This document shows positions 2,510-56,334 of a DNA stretch of 64,000 nucleotides, piece by piece. The stretch is taken from contig NC_063061.1 of the NCBI RefSeq assembly GCF_018812025.1, forward strand, positions 3,200,001 to 3,264,000. Direction: 5' to 3'. The stretch is from Megalobrama amblycephala. Lineage: Eukaryota > Chordata > Actinopteri > Cypriniformes > Xenocyprididae. A model generated the notes under the pieces. It worked only from the letters and a program-made list of their open reading frames with translations. It was not told the origin of the DNA and searched no databases. Within the stretch, counting starts at the first letter, position 1; the number at the start of each line of letters is the position of its first letter. The translations under genes were made by a program, and so were the position numbers.

Positions 2510-5228
2510 ATTCCGTTTTGACATAAGCTTTTATTCACAAACAAAAGTAGGCATCTAAATAAATACTATATAAAATAGAACTTCAAAATAAATATATCTA
2601 TAAAGGGACATTTTCATATGTGTGAGATTTTTTTTTCTTTTTGCTTTTTTAAACAAAACAAAAGCACATTGCTCTTTTCTTTAATCCTCAACATTAACAA
2701 TGAAGCCAAAAAATAAAAATAAAAATGCAGAGAGTACAAGCCCAGTTTGGAAGGCAGCTTAAAGTGGGTTAAAAAGCACAGGTTTCTAGTGGCCAAGAAA
2801 CTGTACCACAAATAGACATAGCGTCCTGATGAAAATATCTCAGCAATGGGTTGATAGAAGGAAGATCCATGTAGGCCAGATTATTATGCGAACAACCATA
2901 AAGTTTGTATTTTACAGCTGTATCTTTCTCTGTAGTCGAGATGAAAAATAAGGTGGGGCGAAAAAGCAACACCGAATTGGATGGAATGGAATGTTACTTG
3001 AGAGGGATCCCCGTTCCTCCCAGACAAGTTCACGCACAGCAGCTGTATATGTCAATCAAGCACTGAAGATGTTGCACCATTTTAGGAGGAAGGAGGAAAA
3101 ACAAAATGCTTGGCCACATTCGGTAAAAAAAAAAAAAACGTTACTTTGAGCGTGATGAAATGCCGTTCCTTCGGCGAATTCAATTAAATCTACAGTTTCA
3201 GGGGCACTGAGGAACCGGGAATTAGCCTTGCCTCTCTCGTGCTAATGAGGCATGGCTAGCATTAACAGAGGTATTTTTATTGCCTGGCACACTTTTCTAA
3301 ATCAAGTGCTTGTAATTGAAATACCTAAACACCCTACCTTCTATGCCACAGCCACATAATCTTAACCCCCACCCGCCCCCAGCCCTCCCAAAAATATAAT
3401 AATTCATTTATATACTTTTGTACTGAATTGTAATTAAATTGTACCATGCAATTTTCAGGACATTTGAAACATATTTTAAGATAGCTAGTTTCTTGAGACT
3501 ATTTACAAGAATGTGTAACCTGCATAGGTCAAAATCTAAGATATCTATGGTACATTTGCAACTCTTCCCTATGCAGCTATGCAAGCTTCTCCATTCAGAA
3601 CTACTCTGGCACTTATCCACGGGTTAGATTGCAAACTTAAACTTAAACCCTAGCCTTATACATTCAAGACTAAGAACAGTAGTGTATTTCTGCTTTTCTG
3701 ATTTGTGCAACAAGTACAAAGGTTGGAGTTTGTGGGACTAAATGAGCGAGGTCTTACGTTCGGTTTAAATGCGTGAACCGTGGGTTTGTGTTGAGCAGGC
3801 AGAAAACATTCCCTCGTGCTCCAAGACTCTAGGAATCCTGGGAAGTGGAGCAGCGTACCTTTAAGAGCTTCCTGTCCCACTAATTGGCTAAAGTACAACA
3901 ATGCATGCCCAACAAACAATTAGAATTAAAAATGGTCAACGCAAACTCCATGGTGCACTCCTTTGGCAAAATCTCTATACTCTACATATAACAAAAATAT
4001 ATGTGGAGAAAGCAGTTCGATACTAGGGCACATTGATAGAGCGTTGTGTTTGGTGGTGGTATGGTGCGTAGTAAACTAGAGGAACTTTTCCAACTACAGT
4101 GAAACACTTTGTACATGCTACTGTACATAATACTGTGCTTTTGCCTCATTATAACGGTGATACAATCGGCATGTTTAGTTTATTAGCGGCAGAGCAGTAT
4201 AAGCTAACTTTATAGCTTTTCCTTTTCCCATAACTACTGGCCCAATTCTTCTCATAGCTTATGAATGCTTGGTGTCTGAATTGCTGTGTTTTTCCCCAAA
4301 CAATTCCACTGCCTGTTTCCTTATCTTTAGTCACCAAACTAGTTCCAAGCTGAATTCACATGATGTACGTAATTCAGATGAACTGATGATCCCTGAGGTC
4401 ATTGTCTACAACAAATTGAACCGCTAACATTTGGAAGAATCATTATGGAAGTTCATGTATGCTATGGCATGTCATCAAAGGGACTACTTATGAAAGCTAT
4501 TTGCCGTCGAAAACAAACAATCTGTCCCCACAGAAGATAGAAACATCCTGCCACGCTGTTATGGGTGGTCACCAATGTCTTTCGCAATAGTACACATTGC
4601 ATTTAAGGGAACTTAGAATCCTTCAATGAAACGAAATTACCTCCTATGTTTGCATTTCAAACAACAGAAGAAATAAAGCTCTATAACAAGCTTGTAAATG
4701 TACTGTGCAGAGATGAAGTCTGGTTATTTTGATTGTGACGTGTTATCAGCTTGGAATTCGCTGCAACCTTTCTGCAGTGCCAAGATCCGGAGAGGGATTG
4801 CCAAAGTATAGAGTGTTCTTGAATGGGTGATATTTACTTTGACTTTTCAAAGCCACCCAAAGAGAAAATAAACATCAGAGGAGAGATTGGAATCTTTCAA
4901 AAAAAGACATTTTGCTCAAATGCAGCATTCTGTGTTAGCAAGTTCTTTTACTAGGGGCTGAAATGGCAAATACTTTGATCCCACGGCCATCATGAGAACC
5001 CCAGGAGAAGAAAATGCAGGCCTCGTCCTCTCTGTAGCACTTTATAAACAAGTCAAATAATGATTTGTGCCCGTTTGGTCAGTCAAACACTGCTACTGAT
5101 TTACGCCAGAATACCTTGAGCGTGAGGATAATGCGTGAACCTTAAGTACCATGATTTTGGGAAGTACACCACCACTGGAGAGGGTCCTGCAAACTTTGCT
5201 CACGAGTCTCTCCGTTCCTGGCACACCA
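2510..5228 (-). other. spry4: Probable spry4 3' untranslated region
   Basis: About 2.7 kb follow the spry4 stop codon with no reading frame of interest and no recognised transposon. Long AU-rich 3' UTRs are usual for sprouty genes. The leftmost good polyadenylation hexamer on the minus strand, AATAAA, is at 2530-2535, which would place the cleavage site near 2510. The end is inferred; transcript evidence would fix it. Several small reading frames (for example at 3656-3919) are treated as chance. Confidence 0.45.
2530..2535 (-). terminator. spry4: Candidate polyadenylation signal of spry4
   Basis: TTTATT on the plus strand reads AATAAA on the minus strand. It is the candidate chosen for the end of the spry4 3' UTR because no repeat intervenes between it and the stop codon. 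Other hexamers could be used. Confidence 0.3.
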
Positions 5229-6164
5229 TCATGAGGCCTGTTTTTCCAGCTGACAGGCCTTGACCTCTGCCACCTTGCAGGTCTGGGTGCTTTTGCAGCG
5301 GCAGCCCGGGCGGCTGACACCATCGTAGCACTTCTGCGAAAGCTTGGCGCAACCAGTGGCAGGCAAATAGCACATCAGGCAGGGCAGCACCAAAGAAACG
5401 GCCGCCATGAAGGACCAGCGTGCGCAACAGTTCGAGTGCGAGCAGGAGCACGGCTTGTCAGCACAGGAGCCTTCCTCGTCCTCATCAGTGCAGTGGTAGA
5501 AGACGCCCTTGACTAGACACATGCAAGTGACAGAGTCCACTAGGTTCTGCGCTGAGCACAGGCACTCTTGGTTGCAAACCCAACAAGAGGGCAGGGCCCG
5601 AGGCAACGTGCACTCCGTGCATCGGCATTTGCCGCACTTCTCGCACAATGGCACGTGCTTCTTCTCCACCGGCAAGGCCGCCACTGCCTTCATGTTCTGA
5701 GTCTTGGAGCTCAGCACCTTGGGTTGCTCTGCACCTAGGGTCCTGCCATGGCCATTGCCAGTAGTGTATGGATCCACAACAGGAGGGGGAGCTGCATGGT
5801 CCAGCAGCCGTTGGTCGGAGGAGGTGCTGCTGCTGCTGCTGATGGAGCTGGGCCGACCACTGAATGAAATCCAAGGATGTGTGGTGGCATCCGGGACCTC
5901 GCAGCGGGACAGATGTGGATGGTGTGGGGCTCCCAGCAGGACTTCCTGCCCCCTCGTGCTTGCCTTGTGGCTCGGCGGCTGTTGTGAGATCACAGCAGGG
6001 GTGTCGATGTAGTCATTCTCCAAATGTAAAGATTTCATTTGGTCAATGGGGTAGATAGTTAATGGGTGCTGAAGCCGTCCGTAGGGAACGCGGCTGTCCA
6101 GCAAAGGCTGAACCATGATGGAGGAGGAGACTCCAGGAATGTGGTGAGGAACCCTTGACTCCAT
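5229..6164 (-). CDS. spry4: Sprouty homolog 4 (FGF/RTK signalling inhibitor)
   Basis: A 311-residue protein encoded in one uninterrupted exon, as is normal for sprouty genes. Sprouty proteins are induced by FGF and other receptor tyrosine kinases and inhibit Ras-MAPK signalling at the plasma membrane. Visible features are the N-terminal block MVQPLLDSR (17-25), the SH2-domain-binding tyrosine in ENDYID (Tyr52), a serine-rich stretch GRPSSISSSSSTSSDQRLLD (103-122), and a Cys-rich sprouty domain at about 174-292. That domain contains CEKCGKCRCTEC, LPSCWVCNQECLCSAQ, FYHCTDEDEEGSCADKPCSC and LPCLMCYLPATGC. The start is chosen because the family-typical N-terminus follows it and a splice acceptor lies about 45 bases upstream. 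The length is close to human SPRY4 (about 299 residues). The WISFSGRPSS block and the fgf1 neighbour favour spry4 over spry1 or spry2. I see no frameshift or missing key residue. Confidence 0.95.
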   Translation of the reverse strand: MESRVPHHIPGVSSSIMVQPLLDSRVPYGRLQHPLTIYPIDQMKSLHLENDYIDTPAVISQQPPSHKASTRGQEVLLGAPHHPHLSRCEVPDATTHPWISFSGRPSSISSSSSTSSDQRLLDHAAPPPVVDPYTTGNGHGRTLGAEQPKVLSSKTQNMKAVAALPVEKKHVPLCEKCGKCRCTECTLPRALPSCWVCNQECLCSAQNLVDSVTCMCLVKGVFYHCTDEDEEGSCADKPCSCSHSNCCARWSFMAAVSLVLPCLMCYLPATGCAKLSQKCYDGVSRPGCRCKSTQTCKVAEVKACQLEKQAS

Positions 6165-6210
6165 CTGTAGGTTATGTTCCTCATATACCAGAGATCAGCA
6201 TTTAGCACTC
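6165..6210 (-). other. spry4: spry4 5' UTR segment of the coding exon and splice acceptor
   Basis: On the minus strand TTATCTTTGCAG ends at 6211 and is followed by about 46 bases of leader before the ATG. A pyrimidine-containing tract and AG at this position match the known sprouty structure, a non-coding first exon followed by an exon holding the whole reading frame. Confidence 0.6.
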
Positions 6211-22930: not shown

Positions 22931-24100
22931 TACCGGTCAAAAATGTGGAATAATTAAGATTTTGTAATGTTTTGTAAAGTCTCTCTCATTTAGGCTGCAT
23001 GTATTATTACAATATTATTACAATTTAAAAGAACTGTTTTCTATTTGAATATATTTTAAAATGTAATTTATTCATGTGATGGCAAAGCATCATTACGCCA
23101 GTCTTCAGTGTCACGTGATCCTTCACAAATCATTCTAATATGATGATTTTCTCAACATTTGTTATCAATATCAGTGTTGAAAACAGTTGTGCTGCTTCAT
23201 TCCATTCAAAAGTTTAAGATTTTAAAAATTAAAAAAAAAGTGACAGTAAAGACATTTGACAAGTACGGAAGAGGATTAGGGCCAAGCAATAATAAAAAAA
23301 TAAAACCATCTCGAGATTAAAGTTGTTAAATTTCGAGAAAAAAGTCGAAATAAAATTTAAGTCATTAAATTAACTAATTTATTCTCGTAATTTAACAAAT
23401 TTGTTCTCGTAATTTAACGACTTTTTTCTCGTAATTTAATGACTTTATTCTCGTAATTTAATGACTTTATTCTCAACATTTTATCTCGACCTTTCTCGAA
23501 ATTTAACGAGTTTGTTCTCGTAATTTAACGACTTTTTTCTCGTAATTTAATGACTTTATTCTCAAAATTTTATCTCGACTTTTTTCTCAAAATGTAACGA
23601 AATTTTTTTCATAATTTAACGAATTTGTTCTTGTAATTTAACGACGTTTTTCTCGTAATTTAACGACTTTTTTCTCAACATTTTATTTCAACTTTTTTCT
23701 CAAAATTTAATGAGTTTTTTTCTCGTAATTTAACGAGTTTATTTTCAACATTTTATCTCGACTTTTTTCTTGAAATTTAACGAGTTTTTTCTCGTAATTT
23801 AATGAGTTTATTCTCAACATTTTATCTCGATTTTTTTCTCAAAATTTAACAACATTTTTCTCATAATTTAACGAATTTGTTCTCGTAATTTAACGACTTT
23901 TTTCTCAACGTTTTATGTCAACTTTTTTTCTCAAAATTTAACGAGTTTTTTTCTCAAAATTTAACAACTTTAATCTCCAGATGGTTTTATTTTTTTATTA
24001 TTGCTTGGCCCTAATCCTCTTCCGTAGAAAAGTTATAAAAGCTTTCTATTTCGAATAAATGCTTTTGAACTACTGCAAAAAAAAAAAAAAAAAAAGTAAT
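22931..24100 (+). repeat. Old interspersed repeat family R3, interrupted
   Basis: From ACCGGTCAAAAATGTGG onward the sequence matches the segment near 63440-63830, sharing TATTACAATTTAAAA, GTCTTCAGTGTCAC and GATCCTTCA. It ends in a poly-A-like run near 24077. The tail AGTGACAGTAAAGACATTTG is cut by the element at 23264-24026, so R3 inserted first. Confidence 0.6.
23264..24026. mobile_element. Element with inverted ends and an internal tandem repeat
   Basis: The ends are long and nearly perfect inverted repeats: TACGGAAGAGGATTAGGGCC on the left pairs with GGCCCTAATCCTCTTCCGTA on the right, continuing for about 50 bases. TA at both outer edges may be the target duplication. The whole interior is a variable tandem array built from about 20-base words of the form TCTCGTAATTTAACGACTTT and TTCTCAACATTTTATCTCGA. 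No coding region is present. Confidence 0.75.
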
Positions 24101-25431: not shown

Positions 25432-26631
25432 CACTATATTGCCAAAAGTATTGGGACACCCCTCCAAATCATTGAATTCAGGTGTTCCAATCACTTCCAT
25501 GGCCACAGGTGTATAAAATCAAGCACCTAGGCATGCAGACTGCTTCTACAAACATTTGTGAAAGAATGAGTCGCTCTCAGGAGCTCAGTGAATTCAAGCG
25601 TGGTACAGTGATAGGTTGCCACCTGTGCAATAAATCCATTCGTGAAATTTCCTCACTACTAAATATTCCACGGTCACCTGTTAGTGGTATCATAACAAAG
25701 TGGAAGCAATTGGGAACAACAGCAACTCAGCCACGAAGTGATAGGCCACGTAAAATCACAGAGTGCGCAGAAGTCACCAACTTTCTGCAGAGTCAATAGC
25801 TACAGACCTCCAAACTTCATGTGGCCTTCAGATTCAAGAACAGTGTTTAGAGAGCTTCATGGAATGGGTTTCCATGGCCGAGCAGCTGCATCCAAGACTT
25901 ACATCACCAAGTGCAATGCAAAGGGTTGGCTGCAGTGGTGTAAAGCACACCGCCACTGGACTCTAGAGCAGTGGAGACGTGTTCTCTGGAGTGACGAATC
26001 ACGCTTCTCTGTCTGGCAATCTGATGGACGAGTCTGGGTTTGGTGGTTGCCAGGAGAACGGTACTTGCCTGACTGCATTGTGTGTAAAGTGTAAAGTTTG
26101 GTGGAGGGGGATTATGGGGTTGTTTTTCAGGGGTTGGGCTTGAACCCTTAGTTCCAGTGAAAGGAACTCTTAATGCTTCAGCATACCAAGACATTTTGGA
26201 CAATTTCATGCTCCCAACTTTGTGGGAACAGTTTGGGGATGGCCCCTTCCTGTTCCAACATGACTGCGCACCAGTGCACAAAGCAAGGTCCATAAAGACA
26301 TGGATGAGTGAGTTTGGTGTGGAGGAACTTGACTGGCCTGCACTTCAACCCGATAGAACACCTTTGGGATGAATTAGAGCGGAGAATGTGAGCCAGGCCT
26401 TCTGACCAACATCACTGCCTGACCTCACAAATGAGCTTCTAGAAGAATGGTCAAAAATTCCCATAAACACACTCCTAAACCTTGTGGAAAGCCTTCCCAG
26501 AAGAATTGAAGCTGTAATAGCTGCAAAGGGTGGGCCAACTCCATAATAAACCCTACGGATTAAGAATGGGATGTCATTAAAGTTCATGTGCACATAAAGG
26601 AAGGCGTTCCAAAACTTTTGGCAATATAGTG
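25432..26631 (+). mobile_element. Tc1-like transposon, 1200 bp
   Basis: The inverted ends CACTATATTGCCAAAAGT and ACTTTTGGCAATATAGTG are flanked by TA on both sides (25430-25431 and 26632-26633), the Tc1/mariner target. The size matches the family. The element contains a broken transposase gene on the plus strand, described separately. Confidence 0.9.
25566..26546 (+). pseudogene. Tc1-like transposase, inactivated
   Basis: The reading frame starts at the ATG at 25566 with the N-terminal helix-turn-helix region (SRSQELSEFKRGTVIGCHLC, then KSIREISSLLNIPRSPVSGI), which binds the transposon ends in this family. It then changes frame near 25.79 kb and again near 26.09 kb. The DDE catalytic core is recognisable in pieces: [12 protein letters not shown] holds the first Asp, and [19 protein letters not shown] holds the second. 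The glutamate region [11 protein letters not shown] appears in another frame after a small deletion near 26350. The internal stops and frame changes mean no functional transposase is made. Confidence 0.85.
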
Positions 26632-26659: not shown

Positions 26660-27817
26660 TTTAATTAATTGACAGTCTTTTATATATATATATATATATA
26701 TAATATAATTAACTAATTAATCGCACATTTTCTGTAATTAACTGTGATTAATTGCACCTAACCTTACATATTATAATGTAAATTATATATGTATATTTTT
26801 ATTTTTTAATACTTTCACATTGAATCTCCAAAATATTTTAAATATTTGTTTAATGACATCTTCTTACTAAATACTGTGATTTATTTATTTGGCTTTAAAA
26901 AATATAACAAATTTTTATTTAACAATCTTTATATAAACCCATTGTAATAAATGTCACCTTTAGCTTTAATATATGCCTTTAATATATCAAGGCTCAATGC
27001 TAAGAATTTTTTTCTACTGGTCCAGTCGGGTCGATTTTTACCTGCCCTGCTAAAATGCACAAAAAAAGTTTTTGTTTGTGCTTTAAGATTTTCAAGAGAA
27101 GTGAGTGATTTTTCTCTTTGTCTGAAGCAGGTTTATTAGGCTGCTGTCACTTTAAAACCTGACACCCATGACACGGCTCTGTCACACATCCCATTTTCTC
27201 ACAACTCTTTATGTTCATTTAACACTTTTTAACTAATTTAGACTATACTGACAAGGATACTTATGAAAGCTTGTTTCCGCCACTGAATAAAATGTAAAAA
27301 AAGGTATAATTGCAACTTTTTTATCTTGCAATTCTGACATTTTTCCGCCCAGAGTTGCGAGATATAAAGTCACAATTGTGAGATATAAAATAAGAATTGT
27401 GAGATATAAAATCAGAATTGTGAGATATAAAGTCGCAATTACGTTATAAATTCGGAATTGCAAGATATAAAGTCGCAATTGCCTTATAAAGTCAGAAATG
27501 GACTTTATAACTTGCCATTGCACATTTATATCTTGCAATTCTGATAAAAGACGTCAGTATTTCTCACACTTTTGAGTTTATATCTTGCAATTCTGACTTT
27601 ATTTATCACACTTTTGAGTTTATATCTCGCAATTCTGACTGTATTCCTTGCAATTGCAAGTTTATAACTTGCAATTGTGAGAAAAAAGTCAGAATTGTGA
27701 GGGAAAAAAATGAATGATAGCATGCTCATATACTCATACACAGCCAAATGGATGACAGAAAAAAACTCATGCTGCATTAATTGCTTTAAATATTTTTAAC
27801 ATGTTGAAATGACAGCC
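26660..27817. mobile_element. hAT-like repeat family R2, long copy with inserted minisatellite
   Basis: The left part has TTAATCGCACATTTTCTGTA and GTGATTAATTGCACC. The right end is GTTGAAATGACAGCCCT, close to the GGGCTGTCA terminus of a fish hAT group. The right half matches 21540-21922 but is interrupted by the repeat block at 27280-27712. AT-rich microsatellites at 26682-26702 and 27821-27850 flank it. No transposase domain is visible. Confidence 0.5.
27280..27712. repeat. Minisatellite that switches orientation
   Basis: Imperfect units of about 20 bases such as TTGTGAGATATAAAGTC run in one orientation to about 27490. They then appear reversed, as ATATCTTGCAATTCTGACTT, to about 27660. The block as a whole can fold back on itself. 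Confidence 0.7.
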
Positions 27818-33960: not shown

Positions 33961-35012
33961 TTTAGGAATTTATATATATTAACATAAGTGTGTTAATTAA
34001 CATAAACATAAATTGTAAGAATATGACTAATACTGATTAATAAACAGTAGAATAGGCCTATCCACCTTATTCCTACGCCCCATGACGCGAATTATGGGTG
34101 TAACTTCCGTTAAGCTGTAAACAGTCAGTGAAAGACTCGCTCTATGAACGCAATAATACGTTAAAAATGGGTACAATGAGATGACATTATTCTACTCACC
34201 CTTCAACCATCGAACATTACAAGGACATGTGTAAAAGTGTGTAAAGTGTAAAAGCATCAGGCCATGAAAAAGTGCGATTCTTCCCACAGCAATAACGGAC
34301 GGGTTAATATAACTATAGTGATATATATCTGTATTATGTAATATATGTTCCTTAATAAAAAATGTTCATGAACTTTAGCATTGCGTGATACTATTTCAAA
34401 GTGATTTCCATCATTTTTACATATAATAAATTGTATTTACCTGTGAAAACAAACCTGGAAAGGCTTTGAGGAGAAAAACGAGAGATTCTTCGTTCATTCC
34501 AGTGAATTATTAATGGGATACATCATAAATTATATCGGGAGAACAGACCACAAATGTGCAGTATATGTTGTCCTTTTGGAATGCAAAGGGACAAAAGAAA
34601 ATAATCACGAGGATAGAAAGCAGCGACTGAAGAGCTCTTGCCATAGATATTCTTGTTATAACATGTTACGTTAAAATACCAAACGTTACGTTATTCTCAT
34701 GATGTCTGAAAATAAAACATGAAAAAATCAGTCAAACTGACGGATAAGCTTTATTTGTAAGGCAACCTTATGATTTGAAACATTAGTTTCAGTCGTTTTA
34801 AATGGAAGTTCCCCAAACCAGAAGAGCAACCCATAATTCGAAATGCAGTAGGCTAGCCAGGTATTACATAGCAGTCCCAAAGTAGCTTTTGTTAATACAA
34901 TAAAGTTGGTAATCTTGGCATGAGCCGCCACAGTCATTTAAAAATATACAAAATAACACAAAGTGAGAATAAATTTTGGTGTTAAGGAAACAACAGTTAC
35001 CATGTTGAATAC
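33961..35012. other. Left flank of the giant palindrome
   Basis: AT-rich sequence with no recognised gene. It has no match on the right side of the palindrome, so the mirror symmetry begins at about 35009-35013. Confidence 0.4.
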
Positions 35013-35115
35013 CGCAGTAAAGATAGTTTGCGGTTTGATATTCAGATTTCTTTTGGCTATAAATACGCAGTGCGCTGTCATAGACATGCAAATAATACCG
35101 AATATCGTTCTCCAT
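34864..35115 (-). other. Outward-facing short reading frame at the left palindrome end
   Basis: An ATG at 35113-35115 on the minus strand opens a frame reading MENDIRYYLHVYDSALRIYS and onwards to LYCG. It is the same as the frame at 43752 on the plus strand up to the point where the palindrome ends. It then continues into unrelated flanking DNA for a total of 83 codons. I recognise no domain. It could be a relic first exon (a GT dinucleotide follows GCG at the divergence point) or chance. Confidence 0.35.
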
Positions 35116-35253
35116 GATTTGTGAATTAAGGTGACGCTGTCCTTTGGGCCGAAATCAGGGGTTTTTTTCGTAGCGACTCTTAATTTTATAATGGCTATAG
35201 CTCCAAATGTTGGACACTTAGAGGAATGAAACTGGTGTCATCTTCACCAGCTT

Positions 35254-35432
35254 GATCTGTGAATTTTTTCACAGCAAAGCTCTTGTCCGTAAACCCCTTG
35301 GTAAGTCCGCCAGTAAGGAATGTGAAATAAAAGCGTTCTTCATGTTTAACGTCTATTACCAATGAACAAGCAGACTGCTGGAATAAAATAACATTGTTTT
35401 AGGTCGAGCTCGATTTGTGAAAACTTTCACAA
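35254..35432. repeat. Subterminal palindromic motifs, left arm
   Basis: GATCTGTGAATTTTTTCACAG (first 20 bases from 35254) and GATTTGTGAAAACTTTCACA (from 35412) are diverged versions of the CTGTGAAAACTTTCACAG palindrome that makes up the satellite. They lie in unique arm sequence before the array starts. Similar subterminal motifs serve as transposase binding sites in many DNA transposons. Confidence 0.65.
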
Positions 35433-35496
35433 TAGCATTTTATCTCGTGGTCGTGTTTCTCTTTGCTCTGCCCCCTGTTTTTTGTATAATATGATA

Positions 35497-35501
35497 AATA
35501 A

Positions 35502-35553
<52 letters not shown>

Positions 35554-35556
35554 AAT
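35497..35556. repeat. (AT)n tract, left arm
   Basis: Alternating AT next to the start of the 71-bp array, mirrored at 43331-43373. Confidence 0.95.
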
Positions 35557-35570
35557 GACCTTGTACAGAT

Positions 35571-38500
35571 AATGTACATCACTATTCTCATCTGTGAAAA
35601 CTTTCACAGTTCAGTACGGGTCAGCTGACCCATCCAAGGGTCACTAGCATCACTTTTCTGATCTGTGAAAACTTTCACAGTTCAGTACGGGTCAGCTGAC
35701 CCATCCAAGGGTCACTAGCATCACTTTTCTGATCTGTGAAAACTTTCACAGTTCAGTACGGGTCAGCTGACCCTTCCCTGGGTCATGTACATCACTATTC
35801 TGATCTGTGAAAACTTTCACAGTTCAGTACGGGTCAGCTGACCCATCCCTGGGTCACTAGCATCACTTTTCTGATCTGTGAAAACTTTCACAGTTCAGTA
35901 CTGGTCAGCTGACCCATCCCAGGGTCACTAGCATCGCTTTTCTGATCTGTGAAAATTTTCACAGTTCAGTACGGGTCAGCTGACCCATCCCTGGGTCACT
36001 AGCATCGCTTTTCTGATCTGTGAAAACTTTCTCAGTTCAGTACGGGTCAGCTGACCCATCCAAGGGTCACTAGAATCACTTTTCTGATCTGTGAAAACGT
36101 TCACAGTTCAGTACGGGTCAGCTGACCCTTCCCTGGGTCATGTACATCACTATTCTGATCTGTGAAAACTTTCACAGTTCAGTACGGGTCAGCTGACCCA
36201 TCCCAGGGTCACTAGCATCGCTTTTCTGATCTGTGAAAACTTTCTCAGTTCAGTACTGGTCAGCTGACCCATCCCAGGGTCACTAGCATCGCTTTTCTGA
36301 TCTGTGAAAACTTTCTCAGTTCAGTACGGGTCAGCTGACCCATCCAAGGGTCACTAGAATCACTTTTCTGATCTGTGAAAACTTTCACAGTTCAGTACGG
36401 GTCAGCTGACCCTTCCCTGGGCCATGTACATCACTATTCTGATCTGTGAAAACTTTCACAGTTCAGTACGGGTCAGCTGACCCTTCCCTGGGCCATGTAC
36501 ATCACTATTCTGATCTGTGAAAACTTTCACAGTTCAGTACGGGTCAGCTGACCCATCCCTGGGTCACTAGCATTACTTTTCTGATCTGTGAAAACTTTCA
36601 CAGTTCAGTACGGGTCAGCTGACCCTTCCCTGGGCCATGTACATCACTATTCTGATCTGTGAAAACTTTCACAGTTCAGTACGGGTCAGCTGACCCATCC
36701 CTGGGTCACTAGCATCACTTTTCTGATCTGTGAAAACTTTCACAGTTCAGTACGGGTCAGCTGACCCATCCAAGGGTCACTAGCATCACTTTTCTGATCT
36801 GTGAAAACGTTCACAGTTCAGTACGGGTCAGCTGACCCTTCCCTGGGTCATGTACATCACTATTCTGATCTGTGAAAACTTTCACAGTTCAGTACGGGTC
36901 AGCTGACCCATCCCTGGGTCACTAGCATCACTTTTCTGATCTGTGAAAACTTTCACAGTTCAGTACTGGTCAGCTGACCCATCCCAGGGTCACTAGCATC
37001 GCTTTTCTGATCTGTGAAAATTTTCACAGTTCAGTACGGGTCAGCTGACCCATCCCTGGGTCACTAGCATCGCTTTTCTGATCTGTGAAAACTTTCTCAG
37101 TTCAGTACGGGTCAGCTGACCCATCCAAGGGTCACTAGAATCACTTTTCTGATCTGTGAAAACTTTCACAGTTCAGTACGGGTCAGCTGACCCTTCCCTG
37201 GGCCATGTACATCACTATTCTGATCTGTGAAAACTTTCACAGTTCAGTACGGGTCAGCTGACCCTTCCCTGGGCCATGTACATCACTATTCTGATCTGTG
37301 AAAACTTTCACAGTTCAGTACGGGTCAGCTGACCCATCCCTGGGTCACTAGCATTACTTTTCTGATCTGTGAAAACTTTCACAGTTCAGTACGGGTCAGC
37401 TGACCCTTCCCTGGGCCATGTACATCACTATTCTGATCTGTGAAAACTTTCACAGTTCAGTACGGGTCAGCTGACCCATCCCTGGGTCACTAGCATCACT
37501 TTTCTGATCTGTGAAAACTTTCACAGTTCAGTACGGGTCAGCTGACCCATCCAAGGGTCACTAGCATCACTTTTCTGATCTGTGAAAACGTTCACAGTTC
37601 AGTACGGGTCAGCTGACCCTTCCCTGGGTCATGTACATCACTATTCTGATCTGTGAAAACTTTCACAGTTCAGTACGGGTCAGCTGACCCATCCCTGGGT
37701 CACTAGCATCACTTTTCTGATCTGTGAAAACTTTCACAGTTCAGTACTGGTCAGCTGACCCATCCCAGGGTCACTAGCATCGCTTTTCTGATCTGTGAAA
37801 ACTTTCTCAGTTCAGTACGGGTCAGCTGACCCATCCAAGGGTCACTAGAATCACTTTTCTGATCTGTGAAAACTTTCACAGTTCAGTACGGGTCAGCTGA
37901 CCCTTCCCTGGGCCATGTACATCACTATTCTGATCTGTGAAAACTTTCACAGTTCAGTACGGGTCAGCTGACCCTTCCCTGGGCCATGTACATCACTATT
38001 CTGATCTGTGAAAACTTTCACAGTTCAGTACGGGTCAGCTGACCCATCCCTGGGTCACTAGCATTACTTTTCTGATCTGTGAAAACTTTCACAGTTCAGT
38101 ACGGGTCAGCTGACCCTTCCCTGGGCCATGTACATCACTATTCTGATCTGTGAAAACTTTCACAGTTCAGTACGGGTCAGCTGACCCATCCCTGGGTCAC
38201 TAGCATCACTTTTCTGATCTGTGAAAACTTTCACAGTTCAGTACGGGTCAGCTGACCCATCCAAGGGTCACTAGCATCACTTTTCTGATCTGTGAAAACG
38301 TTCACAGTTCAGTACGGGTCAGCTGACCCTTCCCTGGGTCATGTACATCACTATTCTGATCTGTGAAAACTTTCACAGTTCAGTACGGGTCAGCTGACCC
38401 ATCCCTGGGTCACTAGCATCACTTTTCTGATCTGTGAAAACTTTCACAGTTCAGTACTGGTCAGCTGACCCATCCCAGGGTCACTAGCATCGCTTTTCTG

Positions 38501-39107
38501 ATCTGTGAAAATTTTCACAGTTCAGTACGGGTCAGCTGACCCATCCCTGGGTCACTAGCATCGCTTTTCTGATCTGTGAAAACGTTCACAGTTCAGTACG
38601 GGTCAGCTGACCCTTCCCTGGGTCATGTACATCACTATTCTGATCTGTGAAAACTTTCACAGTTCAGTACGGGTCAGCTGACCCATCCCTGGGTCACTAG
38701 CATCACTTTTCTGATCTGTGAAAACTTTCACAGTTCAGTACTGGTCAGCTGACCCATCCCAGGGTCACTAGCATCGCTTTTCTGATCTGTGAAAATTTTC
38801 ACAGTTCAGTACGGGTCAGCTGACCCATCCCTGGGTCACTAGCATCGCTTTTCTGATCTGTGAAAACTTTCTCAGTTCAGTACGGGTCAGCTGACCCATC
38901 CAAGGGTCACTAGAATAACTTTTCTGATCTGTGAAAACTTTCACAGTTCAGTACGGGTCAGCTGACCCTTCCCTGGGCCATGTACATCACTATTCTGATC
39001 TGTGAAAACTTTCACAGTTCAGTACGGGTCAGCTGACCCTTCCATGGGTCATGTACATCACTATTCTGACCTGTGAAAACTTTCACAGTTCAGTACGGGT
39101 CAGCTGA
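35571..39107 (+). repeat. 71-bp satellite, left array
   Basis: GATCTGTGAAAA starts recur exactly every 71 bases from 35589 to 39068, 50 units here; the array resumes after an insertion at 40401 to give 51. Each unit contains CTGTGAAAACTTTCACAG, then TTCAGTACGG, then the perfect palindrome GGGTCAGCTGACCC, then a variable tail. The tail is either CACTAGCATCACTTTTCT or CATGTACATCACTATTCT. Variants are ordered: blocks at 36370-37150, 37151-37860 and 37861-38570 repeat the same series of 11, 10 and 10 units, so it is a higher-order repeat. Confidence 0.95.
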
Positions 39108-40400
39108 CCCACTGAGCAAATTACGTCCAGAAGACGTCTTTTTGAGGTCTTGTCTCAGGTTGAAAAGACGTCCACTGAGGGGCCAGAATGAAAGTTTTTA
39201 TGACGTCTTTTTTGGACGTCTTCTGGACATCCGATATAGACGAACAAGCAGAATCACCAAAGGAGAAAAATCACAATTTTTAAGCCACCATCGTGGAGAT
39301 GAGTGTTTGCTTTAGTTGGGCTCTTGACCCTTGCCTTATTAATATTAGAGTTTGTTTGGGCTGTTAACTCAGTCATAACAGCCAGACAAGTAAAGAGAAA
39401 TGATCAGGTGATGGTTATGTTTTCACATAATCATTGTTTGATCTGAATCACTGAACTCATTTAGAGCCCAATCTCTGAGTTATATTTACGTTATTGATTA
39501 CAGCAGCACTGTGATTCTACAGCACAAGATCAGCTTTATCAAGATAATATAAAGGATTTCACAAACAGTTGTTCTGAGCAAAAAAAAAATCTTTCTCTTA
39601 GGCACACACAGACATCAAGAATCAGCCTGTGAATCTCAAGGACGGTGACAAGCAACATATTCTGATCAACAGATCAACTCTGAAAATTAGAAAACAAGCT
39701 ACTAAAAAGTCACATAAACAGAACAAAATAAAATATGAGAATAAAGGAAATTACTAAGACAATTAAGCTCATAATTTATTCATGCAGCAATGCATGATGG
39801 GAGCCATGGATGAATTTTGATTGGTTGCTCCCAGAATGCACTGCAACATGCTTTTTGATGGTCACCACTGTTGAGATTCACAGGATGATTCTTGATGTCT
39901 GTGTGTGCCTAAAATAAAAGCTTTTTTTTGTTCAACACACCTTTTCTGAAATCATGTGAATCGTATTGATAAAGCTGATCTTGTGCTGTAGAATCACAGT
40001 GATGCTGTAATCAATAATGTAAATCTAACTCACAGATTGGGCTCTAAATGAGTTCAGTGATTCAGGTCAAACAATGATTATGTGAAAACATAACCAACAT
40101 CTGATCATTTCTCTTTGCTTGTCTGGCTGTTATGACTCAATTAACAGCCCAAACAAACTCTAATATTAATAAGGCAAGGGACAAGAGCCCAACTAAAGCA
40201 AACACTCATCTCCACGATGGTGGCTTAAAAATTGTGATTTTTCTCCTTTGGTGATTCTGCGTGTTCGTCTATATCGGATGTCCAGAAGACGTCCAAAAAA
40301 GACGTCATAAAAACTTTCATTCTGGCCCCTCAGTGGACGTCTTTTCAACCTGAGACAAGACCTCAAAAAGACGTCTTCTGGACGTAATTTGCTCAGTGGG
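39108..40400. mobile_element. Independent foldback element inserted in the satellite
   Basis: The inverted ends CCCACTGAGCAAATTACGTC and GACGTAATTTGCTCAGTGGG extend inward for roughly 500 bases per arm. Matched landmarks include GGTGATTCTGC and CTTTATCAA. The left flank ...GCTGA and right flank GACCC... show a GA duplication (up to GACCC, since the element begins CCC). Removing one copy restores a normal 71-bp monomer. No protein-coding capacity is visible. The CACTG start recalls CACTA-type elements, but this is only a resemblance. Confidence 0.85.
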
Positions 40401-40504
40401 GACCCTTCCCTGGGTCACTAACATCGCTATTCTGATCTGTGAAACCTTTCACAGTTGAGTTTTGGTCAGCTGACCCTTCCCTGGGTCATGTACATCACTA
40501 TTCT
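40401..40504 (+). repeat. Remainder of the left-oriented array
   Basis: This completes the monomer split by the insertion (40401-40433) and adds one more full unit (40434-40504). It carries unusual substitutions (GTGAAACCTTTCAC and GAGTTTTGGTCAGC). Confidence 0.85.
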
Positions 40505-43313
40505 GAACTGTGAAAGTTTTCACAGATCAGAATAGTGATGCTAGTGACCCAGGGAAGGGTCAGCTGACCCGTACTGAACTGTGAACGTTTTCACAGATCA
40601 GAAAAGTGATGCTAGTGACCCTTGGATGGGTCAGCTGACCCGTACTGAACTGTGAAAGTTTTCACAGATCAGAAAAGTGATGCTAGTGACCCAGGGATGG
40701 GTCAGCTGACCCGTACTGAACTGTGAAAGTTTTCACAGATCAGAATAGCGATGTTAGTGACCCAGGGAAGGGTCAGCTGACCCGTACTGAACTGTGAAAG
40801 TTTTCACAGATCAGAAAAGTGATGTACATGACCCAGGGAAGGGTCAGCTGACCCGTACTGAACTGTGAAAGTTTTCACAGATCAGAAAAGTGATGTACAT
40901 GACCCAGGGAAGGGTCAGCTGACCCGTACTGAACTGTGAAAATTTTCACAGATCAGAAAAGTGATGCTAGTGACCCTGGCATGGGTCAGCTGACCCGTAC
41001 TGAACTGTGAAAGTTTTCACAGATCAGAATAGTGATGTACATGACCCTGGGATGGGTCAGCTGACCCGTACTGAACTGTGAAAGTTTTCACAGATCAGAA
41101 TAGCGATGTTAGTGACCCAGGGAAGGGTCAGCTGACCCGTATTGAACTGTGAAAGTTTTCACAGATCAGAATAGCGATGTACATGACCCAGGGAAGGGTC
41201 AGCTGACCCGTACTGAACTGTGAAAATTTTCACAGATCAGAAAAGTGATGCTAGTGACCCAGGGAAGGGTCAGCTGACCCGTACTGAACTGTGAAAGTTT
41301 TCACAGATCAGAAAAGTGATGCTAGTGACCCAGGGATGGGTCAGCTGACCCGTACTGAACTGTGAAAGTTTTCACAGATCAGAATAGTGATGTACATGAC
41401 CCAGGGAAGGGTCAGCTGACCCGTACTGAACTGTGAAAGTTTTCACAGATCAGAAAAGTGATGCTAGTGACCCTGGGATGGGTCAGCTGACCCGTACTGA
41501 ACTGTGAAAGTTTTCACAGATCAGAATAGTGATGTACATGACCCAGGGAAGGGTCAGCTGACCCGTACTGAACTGTGAAAGTTTTCACAGATCAGAAAAG
41601 TGATGCTAGTGACCCTGGGAAGGGTCAGCTGACCCGTACTGAACTGTGAAAGTTTTCACAGATCAGAAAAGTAATGCTAGTGACCCAGGGAAGGGTCAGC
41701 TGACCCGTACTGAACTGTGAAAGTTTTCACAGATCAGAATAGTGATGTACATGACCCTGGGATGGGTCAGCTGACCCGTACTGTACTGTGAAAGTTTTCA
41801 CAGATCAGAAAAGTGATGCTAGTGACCCTGGGATGGGTCAGCTGACCCGTACTGAACTGTGAAAGTTTTCACAGATCAGAATAGTGATGTACATGACCCT
41901 GGGATGGGTCAGCTGACCCGTACTGAACTGTGAAAGTTTTCACAGATCAGAATAGCGATGTTAGTGACCCAGGGAAGGGTCAGCTGACCCGTATTGAACT
42001 GTGAAAGTTTTCACAGATCAGAATAGCGATGTACATGACCCAGGGAAGGGTCAGCTGACCCGTACTGAACTGTGAAAATTTTCACAGATCAGAAAAGTGA
42101 TGCTAGTGACCCAGGGAAGGGTCAGCTGACCCGTACTGAACTGTGAAAGTTTTCACAGATCAGAAAAGTGATGCTAGTGACCCAGGGATGGGTCAGCTGA
42201 CCCGTACTGAACTGTGAAAGTTTTCACAGATCAGAATAGTGATGTACATGACCCAGGGAAGGGTCAGCTGACCCGTACTGAACTGTGAAAGTTTTCACAG
42301 ATCAGAATAGCGATGTTAGTGACCCAGGGAAGGGTCAGCTGACCCATACTGAACTGTGAAAGTTTTCACAGACCAGAAAAGTTATGTACATGACCCAGGG
42401 AAGGGTCAGCTGACCAAAACTCAACTGTGAAAGTTTTCACAGATCAGAATAGCGATGTTAGTGACCCAGTGAAGGGTCAGCTGACCCGTACTGAACTGTG
42501 AAAGTTTTCACAGGTCAGAATAGTGATGTACATGACCCAGGGAAGGGTCAGCTGACCCGTACTGAACTGTGAAAGTTTTCACAGGTCAGAATAGTGATGT
42601 ACATGACCCAGGGAAGGGTCAGCTGACCCGTACTGAACTGTGAAAGTTTTCACAGATCAGAAAAGTAATGCTAGTGACCCAGGGAAGGGTCAGCTGACCC
42701 GTACTGAACTGTGAAAGTTTTCACAGATCAGAATAGTGATGTACATGACCCTGGGATGGGTCAGCTGACCCGTACTGTACTGTGAAAGTTTTCACAGATC
42801 AGAAAAGTGATGCTAGTGACCCTGGGATGGGTCAGCTGACCCGTACTGAACTGTGAAAGTTTTCACAGATCAGAATAGTGATGTACATGACCCTGGGATG
42901 GGTCAGCTGACCCGTACTGAACTGTGAAAGTTTTCACAGATCAGAATAGCGATGTTAGTGACCCAGGGAAGGGTCAGCTGACCCGTATTGAACTGTGAAA
43001 GTTTTCACAGATCAGAATAGCGATGTACATGACCCAGGGAAGGGTCAGCTGACCCGTACTGAACTGTGAAAGTTTTCACAGATCAGAATAGTGATGTACA
43101 TGACCCAGGGAAGGGTCAGCTGACCCGTACTGAACTGTGAAAGTTTTCACAGATCAGAAAAGTGATGCTAGTGACCCTGGGATGGGTCAGCTGACCCGTA
43201 CTGAACTGTGAAAGTTTTCACAGATCAGAATAGCGATGTTAATGACCCAGGGAAGGGTCAGCTGCCCAAAACTCAACTGTGAAAGTTTTCACAGATCAGA
43301 ATAGTGATGTACA
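40505..43313 (-). repeat. 71-bp satellite, right array (reverse orientation)
   Basis: From 40505 the same monomer reads in reverse. The word GTTTTCACAGATC recurs every 71 bases, with its last base at 40528 for the first and 43297 for the last, 40 units. Variants form their own higher-order series: the marker CCCGTATTGAAC appears near 41141, 41993 and 42987, which are 12 and 14 units apart. The variant order differs from the left array, so the arms expanded separately. Confidence 0.95.
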
Positions 43314-43327
43314 TTATCTGTACAAGG

Positions 43328-43330
<3 letters not shown>

Positions 43331-43373
<43 letters not shown>
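43331..43373. repeat. (AT)n tract, right arm
   Basis: Mirror image of the tract at 35497-35556. Confidence 0.95.
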
Positions 43374-43375
<2 letters not shown>

Positions 43376-43433
43376 TATTATACAAAAAACGGGGGGCAGA
43401 GCAAAGAGAAACACGACCACGAGATAAAATGCT

Positions 43434-43613
43434 ATTGTGAAAGTTTTCACAAATCGAGCTCGACCTAAAACAATGTTATTTTATTCCAGCAGTCTGCGTG
43501 TTCATTGGTAATAGACGTTAAACATGAAGAACGCTTTTATTTCACATTCCTTACTGGCGGACTTACCAAGGGGTTTACGGACAAGAGCTTTGCTGTGAAA
43601 AAATTCACAGATC
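43434..43613. repeat. Subterminal palindromic motifs, right arm
   Basis: TTGTGAAAGTTTTCACAAATC (core 43435-43453) and CTGTGAAAAAATTCACAG (43593-43610) mirror the two subterminal motifs of the left arm. Confidence 0.65.
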
Positions 43614-43751
43614 AAGCTGGTGAAGATGACACCAGTTTCATTCCTCTAAGTGTCCAACATTTGGAGATATAGCCATTATAAAATTAAGAGTCGCTACGAA
43701 AAAAAAAACTGATTTCGGCCCAAAGGACAGCGTCACCTTAATTCACAAATC

Positions 43752-43877
43752 ATGGAGAACGATATTCGGTATTATTTGCATGTCTATGACAGCGCACTGC
43801 GTATTTATAGCCAAAAGAAATCTGAATATCAAACCGCAAACTATCTTTACTGCGGTATGGTGAATACACAATACTAG
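43752..43877 (+). other. Outward-facing short reading frame at the right palindrome end
   Basis: ATG at 43752 opens a 41-codon frame (MENDIRYYLHVYDSALRIYS and onwards to LYCG, then MVNTQY and a stop). Identity to the left-end frame stops exactly at the GCGGTAT edge. No domain is recognised. Confidence 0.35.
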
Positions 43878-54775: not shown

Positions 54776-56334
54776 TAGGTGCTGGTCATATAATTAGAAT
54801 ATCATCAAAAAGTTGATTTATTTCACTAATTCCATTCAAAAAGTGAAACTTGTATATTATATTCATTCATTACACACAGACTGATATATTTCAAATGTTT
54901 ATTTCTTTTAATTTTGATGATTATAACTGACAACTAAGGGAAATCCCAAATTCAGTATCTCAGAAAATTAGAATACTGTGAAAAGGTTCAGTATTGAAGA
55001 CACCTGGTGCCACACTCTAATCAGCTAATTAACTCAAAACACCTGCAAAGGCCTTTAAATGGTCTCTCAGTCTAGTTCTGTAGGCTACACAATCATGGGG
55101 AAGACTGCTGACTTGACAGTTGTCCAAAAGATGACCATTGACACCTTGCACAAGAAGGGCAAGACACAAAAGGTCATTGCAAAAGAGTCCAAGCACATTA
55201 ATAGAGAGGCGAAGGGAAGGAAAAGATGTGGTAGAAAAAAGTGTACAAGCAATAGGGATAACTGCACCCTGGAGAGGATTGTGAAACAAAACCCATTCAA
55301 AAATGGAGATTCACAAAGAGTGGACTGCAGCTGGAGTCAGTGCTTCAAGAACCACTACGCACAGACGTATGCAAGACATGGGTTTCTGCTGTTGCATTCC
55401 TTGTGTCAAGCCACTATTGAACAACAGACAGCGTCAGAAGCGTCTTGACAAAAAGGACTGGACTGCTGCTGAGTGGTCCAAAGTTATGTTCTCTGATGAA
55501 AGTAAACATTTTGCATTTCCTTTGGAAATCAGGGTCCCAGAGTCTGGAGGAAGAGAGGAGAGGCACACAATCCACGTTGCTTGAGGTCCAGTGTAAAATT
55601 TCCACAGTCAGTGATGGTTTGGGGTGCCATGTCATCTGCTGGTGTTGGTCCACTGTGTTTTCTGAGGTCCAAGGTCAACGCAGCCGTATACCAGGAAGTT
55701 TTAGAGCACTTCATGCTTCCTGCTGCTGACCAACTTTATAGAGATGCAGATTTCATTTTCCAACAGGACTTGGCACCTGCACACAGTACCTGGTTTAAGG
55801 ACCATGGTATCCCTGTTCTTAATTTGCCAGCAAACTCACCTGACCTTAACCCCATAGAAAATCTATGGGGTATTGTGAAGAGGAAGATGCGATATGCCAG
55901 ACCCAACAATGCAGAAGAGCTGAAGGCCACTATCAGAGCAACCTGGGCTCTCATAACACCTGAGCAGTGCCACAGACTGATCGACTCCATGCCACACCGC
56001 ATTGCTGCAGTAATTCATGCAAAAGGAGCCCCAACTAAGTATTGAGTGCTGTACATGCTCATACTTTTCATGTTCATACTTTTCAGTTGGCCAAGATTTC
56101 TAAAAATCCTTTCTTTGTATTGGTCTTAAGTAATATTCTAATTTTCTGAGATACTGAATTTGGGATTTTCCTTAGTTGTCAGTTATAATCATCAAAATTA
56201 AAAGAAATAAACATTTGAAATATATCAGTCTGTGTGTAATGAATGAATATAATATACAAGTTTCACTTTTCTGAATGGAATTAGTGAAATAAATCAACTT
56301 TTTGATGATATTCTAATTATATGACCAGCACCTG
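54776..56334 (+). mobile_element. Inner Tc1-like transposon with about 200-bp inverted repeats
   Basis: The left end AGGTGCTGGTCATATAATTA and right end TAATTATATGACCAGCACCT are the start of inverted repeats of about 200 bp. Further pairs are GATTTATTTCACTAATTCCA and GGAAATCCCAAATTCAG on the left with their complements on the right. TA flanks both sides (54774-54775 and 56335-56336). The element inserted into the 53960-57077 transposon and is therefore younger. Confidence 0.92.
55095..56045 (+). pseudogene. Tc1-like transposase, frameshifted
   Basis: The reading frame begins MGKTADLTVVQKMTIDTLHK with the N-terminal DNA-binding region, loses frame near 55.2-55.3 kb, and resumes with KEWTAAGVSASRTTTHRRMQ. 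It changes frame again through a segment holding VMFSDESKHFAF, which includes the first catalytic Asp. The last frame is intact from about 55581 to the stop: FIFQQDLAPAHSTWF holds the second Asp and SPDLNPIENLWGIVKRKMRY the Glu. All three catalytic residues are recognisable but the frames are split, so it is inactive. Confidence 0.9.

Follow-up and report, generated by a model that had tools for sequence, protein, structure and literature searches.

How does a giant palindrome with long satellite-like arrays in its arms arise in a fish genome, and does it belong to a known class of mobile DNA? The question is raised by a locus spanning positions 35011 to 43856 of a 64,000-nucleotide stretch of Megalobrama amblycephala (contig NC_063061.1). 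This whole stretch, here referred to as the window, is the scope of the BLAST comparisons, motif counts and random flank pairs reported below. According to our analysis the locus is the remnant of a Foldback-type transposon of unusual size and of a known structural kind, and as an individual element it is probably new. With a probability of roughly 0.7 we read it as a non-autonomous cut-and-paste DNA transposon of the Foldback type, in which the arrays represent expanded putative transposase-binding sites. Perhaps it is driven by the transposase of a Mutator-like element (MULE).

Anatomy of the palindrome

The two outer arms of the element face each other and are nearly identical. Aligned inwards from 35010 and 43857, they formed a gap-free alignment of 490 bp with 7 mismatches (98.6% identity), and BLAST against the window returned a match of 492 bp at the same identity. 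Next to the outer arms, one and the same 71-bp unit is repeated in tandem, the left and right arrays being inverted relative to each other. Tandem Repeats Finder assigned 49.8 copies to the left array (35577-39111) and 39.6 copies to the right array (40503-43311). Both the facing arms and the opposed arrays, with 51 units left and 40 right, had been described in the original prediction and were confirmed, the left count being reached together with the 1.6 left-orientation units that precede the axis (Table 1).

The approximately 7.7 kb between the arms had been taken as an interior. This did not hold, since the region consists of arm sequence and a single nested palindromic insertion. Joining the flanks of the nested element restored a regular 71-bp unit. 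It therefore entered the left array later and is no part of the original element. Without it the element comprises 7551 bp, all of which is arm (4211 and 3340 bp, no loop), and 3120 of 3340 aligned bases were identical between the arms. A large interior that had lost its gene was accordingly rejected. With only arm remaining once the nested element is removed, the absence of a transposase is as expected.

Long inverted arms that form most of the element are characteristic of Foldback elements and were found here, as were tandem repeats in opposite orientation inside each arm. Terminal inverted repeats (TIRs) of more than 100 bp, as expected of MULEs, are present with the 490 bp at 98.6% outside the arrays. 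Together with flanks that resemble a target-site duplication, this anatomy supports the foldback element initially proposed.

Table 1. Positions of the element, its parts and its flanks within the window
Feature	Position	Strand	Remarks
Left candidate 9-bp target-site duplication	35002..35010	+	ATGTTGAAT; 8/9 identical to 43857-43865
Left outer arm	35011..35576	+	Tip inverted repeat ACCGCA-N12-TGCGGT; TA run 35485-35553
Half-dyad, outer arm	35116..35125	+	GATYTGTGAA
Dyad, outer arm	35254..35274	+	GATCTGTGAA..TTCACAG
Dyad, outer arm	35412..35431	+	GATTTGTGAAAACTTTCACA; 19/20 identical to 71-bp unit
Left array	35577..39107	+	About 50 copies of the 71-bp unit, with a higher-order pattern spanning about 10-11 of them
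Nested palindromic element	39108..40400 (about)		Ends CCCACTGAGC...GCTCAGTGGG; arms of about 548 bp at 93%; GA on both sides
Left-orientation units between nested element and axis	40401..40516	+	About 1.6 units
Giant-palindrome axis	40516..40517		Between CTGTGAAAG and TTTTCACAG, within a dyad; 22/24 bases pair
Right array	40517..43311	-	About 39.6 units of 71 bp, opposite orientation
Right outer arm	43312..43856	-	Matching motifs, GATYTGTGAA at 43446, 43604 and 43742; TA run 43330-43382
Right candidate 9-bp target-site duplication	43857..43865	+	ATGGTGAAT; pairs with 35002-35010

The seven differences between the outer arms included only one transition. Four were G on the left versus T on the right (35159-35161 and 35200), three of which are consecutive and border a T-run. 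Another one, A on the left versus C on the right, lies in the 11-bp context GAACA[A/C]GCAGA (35364-35374 and 43493-43503). The same A-left/C-right difference in the same context was found between the arms of the nested element (39242-39252 and 40256-40266), which is either a coincidence or a strand-dependent base-calling error.

Ends, flanks and the choice of superfamily

If the element starts at 35011 and ends at 43856, its 9-bp flanks match at 8 of 9 positions. A match of this quality at any of 9 shifts was reached by 44 of 20000 random flank pairs. The inverted repeat at the tip is 6 bp long with a start at 35011, is absent with starts at 35007-35010 and is shorter with starts at 35012 or 35013. 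Because it is longest with the start at 35011, we favour the 9-bp frame. Target-site duplications of Mutator elements and MULEs measure 8-10 bp and usually 9 bp, and several Foldback elements use MULE transposases.

The alternative that survives best retains the Foldback element but assigns it to a P-type (THAP) or other transposase, with the 7-bp duplication TGTTGAA/TGGTGAA and the ends TACCGC. Members of the P superfamily generate target duplications of 7-8 bp. Frames of 7 bp (6/7) and 11 bp (9/11) are found next to the 9-bp frame, and the former suits a P-type element. Furthermore, passages on Galileo, a member of the P superfamily, report binding of the THAP domain in its long TIRs and further binding sites in the tandem repeats of these (PMC3688188), and P elements were counted in a teleost survey, in a column taken as zebrafish (PMC4746887). 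However, the 9-bp frame matches better (8/9), and the terminal inverted repeat of 6 bp found in this frame is absent in the 7-bp frame. We therefore consider a P-type driver unlikely, even if it is the most serious competitor. Since unrelated transposases are housed in Foldback-like arms, as stated in part of PMC3169594, this architecture alone does not point to one superfamily.

Origin and history of the 71-bp arrays

The 71-bp unit holds two dyads, CTGTGAAAACTTTCACAG (dyad 1) and GGGTCAGCTGACCC (dyad 2). Column variation was determined from 87 complete units, 49 in the left array and 38 in the right, leaving out two incomplete units at the inner ends. It amounted to 0.0097 in both dyads together and to 0.0949 in the rest of the unit, an approximately ten-fold difference, and of 71 circular phases none other than the true one gave a joint variation that low.

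Dyad 1 recurs in each outer arm. TGTGAA-N0-8-TTCACA occurs twice per outer arm and is absent from the window outside the element. When 20000 first-order Markov sequences were generated from the arm, 9 contained this motif once and none contained it twice. The asymmetric core GAT[CT]TGTGAA was found three times per outer arm, in each case oriented like the neighbouring array, and a single time elsewhere in the window. The 20-bp core of the unit agreed at 19 of 20 positions with an arm site of the same orientation, and nothing as good was present in 2000 Markov arms or in 2000 pieces of the window. Since the outer arm contains the core dyad of the unit in matching orientation, internal expansion is simpler than capture. 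Judged from these sequences, the array would most simply have grown from a motif of the arm itself.

The original prediction had also considered a satellite-capturing transposon, that is, a pre-existing genomic satellite captured between the transposon ends or amplified beside them. The arrays are satellite-like and show higher-order patterns, and no counterpart of dyad 2 was found in the outer arm, both of which would fit such an origin. Against it stand the core dyad of the unit in the outer arm and the GAT[CT]TGTGAA sites, which all point like the adjoining array. Capture found no support as the first choice, and we regard it as quite improbable.

The orientation of the units flips at 40516/40517, in the middle of a dyad. 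On the correct join of the nested element's flanks, this axis ranked first at half-widths of 24, 50, 100, 300 and 1000. The nested element is located 113 bp from the axis, and a random position would be equally close in about 3% of cases. Its vicinity to the axis could reflect chance, a target preference or the survival of palindromes with an opened centre.

An axis on a dyad is what snap-back copying would yield, and this also fits a host structure unrelated to transposition, for example a palindromic satellite locus that has expanded through breakage followed by snap-back repair. The defined, near-identical single-copy ends with their short flanking duplication speak against such a locus, and we give it very little credit.

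The two arrays have separate histories. Unit-to-unit spacing was exactly 71 bp in all 87 cases measured (49 left, 38 right). Identity peaked at lags of 10 and 21 units in the left array and of 12 and 14 units in the right one, and the order of the variants differed between them. In total, 3 of 30 exact monomer variants were common to both arrays, compared with 14.5 expected; none of 5000 label permutations gave so low a value, in a test that ignores joint copying of neighbouring units. Mean unit identity was 0.923 within the left array, 0.929 within the right array and 0.922 between the two. Since few exact variants are shared, each array has its own order and the mean identities are nearly equal, the arrays represent one common pool of sequence states that was reshuffled separately while the outer arms stayed near-identical.

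Least credible of all is an assembly artefact in which a read or contig doubled back: long inverted repeats are typical misassemblies, but here the flanks differ and carry a 9-bp candidate duplication, the outer arms show 7 differences in 490 bp, the monomer orders of the arrays diverge with 3 of 30 variants in common, and the nested element is found in one array only.

Besides the 7-bp frame, several observations weigh against the Foldback transposon and its expanded putative binding sites. If any duplication length of 5-11 bp is allowed, the observed score is reached by 398 of 20000 random pairs, and the candidate duplication contains one mismatch. BLAST detected no further copy of the outer arm in the window besides the two arms, so the element is represented there by a single copy, and no transposase linked to it was seen. 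Taken alone, dyad 1 shows no unusual conservation, as 14 of 71 phases were equally low, and for dyad 2 as low a value was reached in 4 of 71 phases; these single-dyad values reflect a clustering of the variable columns at positions 14-37. The second arm dyad agrees with the unit at 19 of 22 positions, which was equalled by 6 of 2000 Markov arms. At a half-width of 12, other unit dyads score higher than the axis at 40516, and at 3000 other axes do so as well (0.899 versus 0.881). Higher-scoring rival axes are to be expected, since the sequence is repetitive and the arrays are unequal in length. With a join one base off, 40516 takes fifth place; with the correct join it ranks first at half-widths of 24 to 1000. 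Finally, the difference between within- and between-array identity is 0.003, and 80 of 2000 permutations gave one as large.

Elsewhere in the window, an open frame of 321 amino acids with a Sprouty domain (Pfam E 2e-34) is located at 5229-6194 on the minus strand. Tc1/mariner-like remnants were found on the plus strand at 55506-56045 and 25696-26094. In the first, 55506-56042 matches DDE_3, and the only match with a solved structure was the Sleeping Beauty transposase (E 7e-32). The Sprouty frame and this remnant are compatible with a fish genome. In the second, 25696-26091 matches HTH_Tnp_Tc3_2 below the curated cut-off (26.1 versus 31.5 bits). Further tandem arrays are present at 23366-23971 (periods of 22 and 69 bp) and 27355-27680 (periods of 19-42 bp).

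Known Foldback systems and the vertebrate MULE question

In the Foldback elements of Drosophila (FB/NOF), each long inverted arm consists of a unique outer part followed inwards by tandem repeats, and the duplication measures 9 bp. The present element is similar in its long inverted arms, in the succession of outer part and tandem repeats and in the 9-bp candidate duplication. Compared by description only, the repeats differ, being 10-31 bp long in FB/NOF and 71 bp long with two dyads here, and so do the hosts, ours being a fish. Drosophila Foldback elements are mentioned in passages of PMC3169594 and PMC4079207.

As described in part of PMC3169594, the Mutator/Foldback family Tm1 of root-knot nematodes combines composite TIRs with 9-bp duplications and a MULE transposase of the Phantom type. 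The likeness extends to the variable length of these TIRs, to their tandem motif and to the unequal number of motifs in the two TIRs. The motif of Tm1, however, is about 14 bp long and occurs in 1-9 consecutive units, compared with 71 bp and about 40-50 units here, and Tm1 has a transposase-coding member (PMC3169594), whereas none was seen linked to the present element. Tetris of Drosophila virilis is described in passages of PMC4079207 as a foldback giving rise to a satellite. It is likewise non-autonomous, with an outer flanking domain followed by tandem repeats and with duplications of 8-10 bp. Its unit measures about 220 bp, its TIRs reach at most 1,735 bp and it has a separate middle domain, in contrast to the arms of 3.3-4.2 kb without a loop in our element (PMC4079207).

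Galileo resembles the present element in the tandem repeats of its TIRs, in which the extra transposase-binding sites are located, and the two TIRs of one copy carry different numbers of tandem units (PMC3688188, PMC3573991, in part). The differences are its P-type transposase, compared with none seen here, and TIRs of up to about 1.25 kb (PMC3688188, PMC3573991). In passages of the former paper multiple binding sites were proposed to give Foldback-like elements specificity, an idea which its authors call untested for Foldback and Phantom (PMC3688188). Muta1 of Aedes aegypti shares an imperfect palindrome at the tip followed by subterminal tandem repeats, has an 8-9 bp duplication and is termed a type 2 Foldback in the relevant section of PMC5225508. 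It is distinguished by repeats of 12 bp, a TIR of 145 bp and an active transposase (PMC5225508). Additionally, a plant MULE with foldback TIRs, MuTAnT, is presented in part of PMC4486113.

With the Foldback reading, the following course of events can be envisaged. The dyads would be recognized by a transposase encoded at another genomic locus; a Mutator/MULE enzyme of the Phantom or NOF type is the likeliest candidate. The arrays would be amplified secondary putative binding sites, by analogy with the sites bound by the THAP domain of the Galileo P-type transposase, and the repetition of sites might raise the affinity or specificity of the transposase. The 71-bp unit would have arisen from a motif of the arm itself, and copying at a dyad, through a hairpin or snap-back, may have produced the palindrome. 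Thereafter the arrays could have grown and shrunk separately in each arm through unequal exchange or replication slippage; the exact 71-bp period would have been kept because either process took place in register.

MULE-NOF is a RepeatMasker label that covers Foldback. According to the relevant parts of two reports, it was counted 1159 times in a teleost survey, in a column taken as zebrafish (PMC4746887), and carp and goldfish are said to owe a main part of their latest expansion to it, along with TcMar-Tc1 (PMC7486454). Given the latter report, an annotated relative of the element may exist. In the passages seen of the literature on foldback and teleost, no fish foldback element was described, and among the matches listed from the deuterostome literature none contained the phrase 'foldback elements'. 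A text search with four short strings of the element found no published match, a weak result since sequences are rarely printed unbroken. The exact patterns of monomer and arm tip had no match in viral contigs and the exact monomer had none in prokaryote genome contigs; both say little, a fish element being unexpected there.

In passages of a 2019 survey the vertebrate MuDR reports in Repbase could not be matched to MULE transposases and were doubted (PMC6446971). Whether MULEs are truly absent from vertebrates and what long variable TIRs mean were named there as open questions (PMC6446971). A genuine vertebrate MULE/Foldback lineage is possible. More tentatively, and rather on the doubtful side, the element could stem from a vertebrate Mutator/Foldback lineage that is still alive or was active until recently, whose transposase recognizes TGTGAAA-NN-TTTCACA and GGGTCAGCTGACCC, and which makes satellite DNA by multiplying its own putative binding sites to about 90 per element.

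If true, such a lineage would answer the published question on the absence of MULEs from vertebrates. With its exact ends, the probes it supplies and the binding-site hypothesis it suggests, the element allows the presence of MULEs in vertebrates and the meaning of their TIRs to be tested. Moreover, it is a candidate case of a satellite that a transposon generated internally from a motif of its own.

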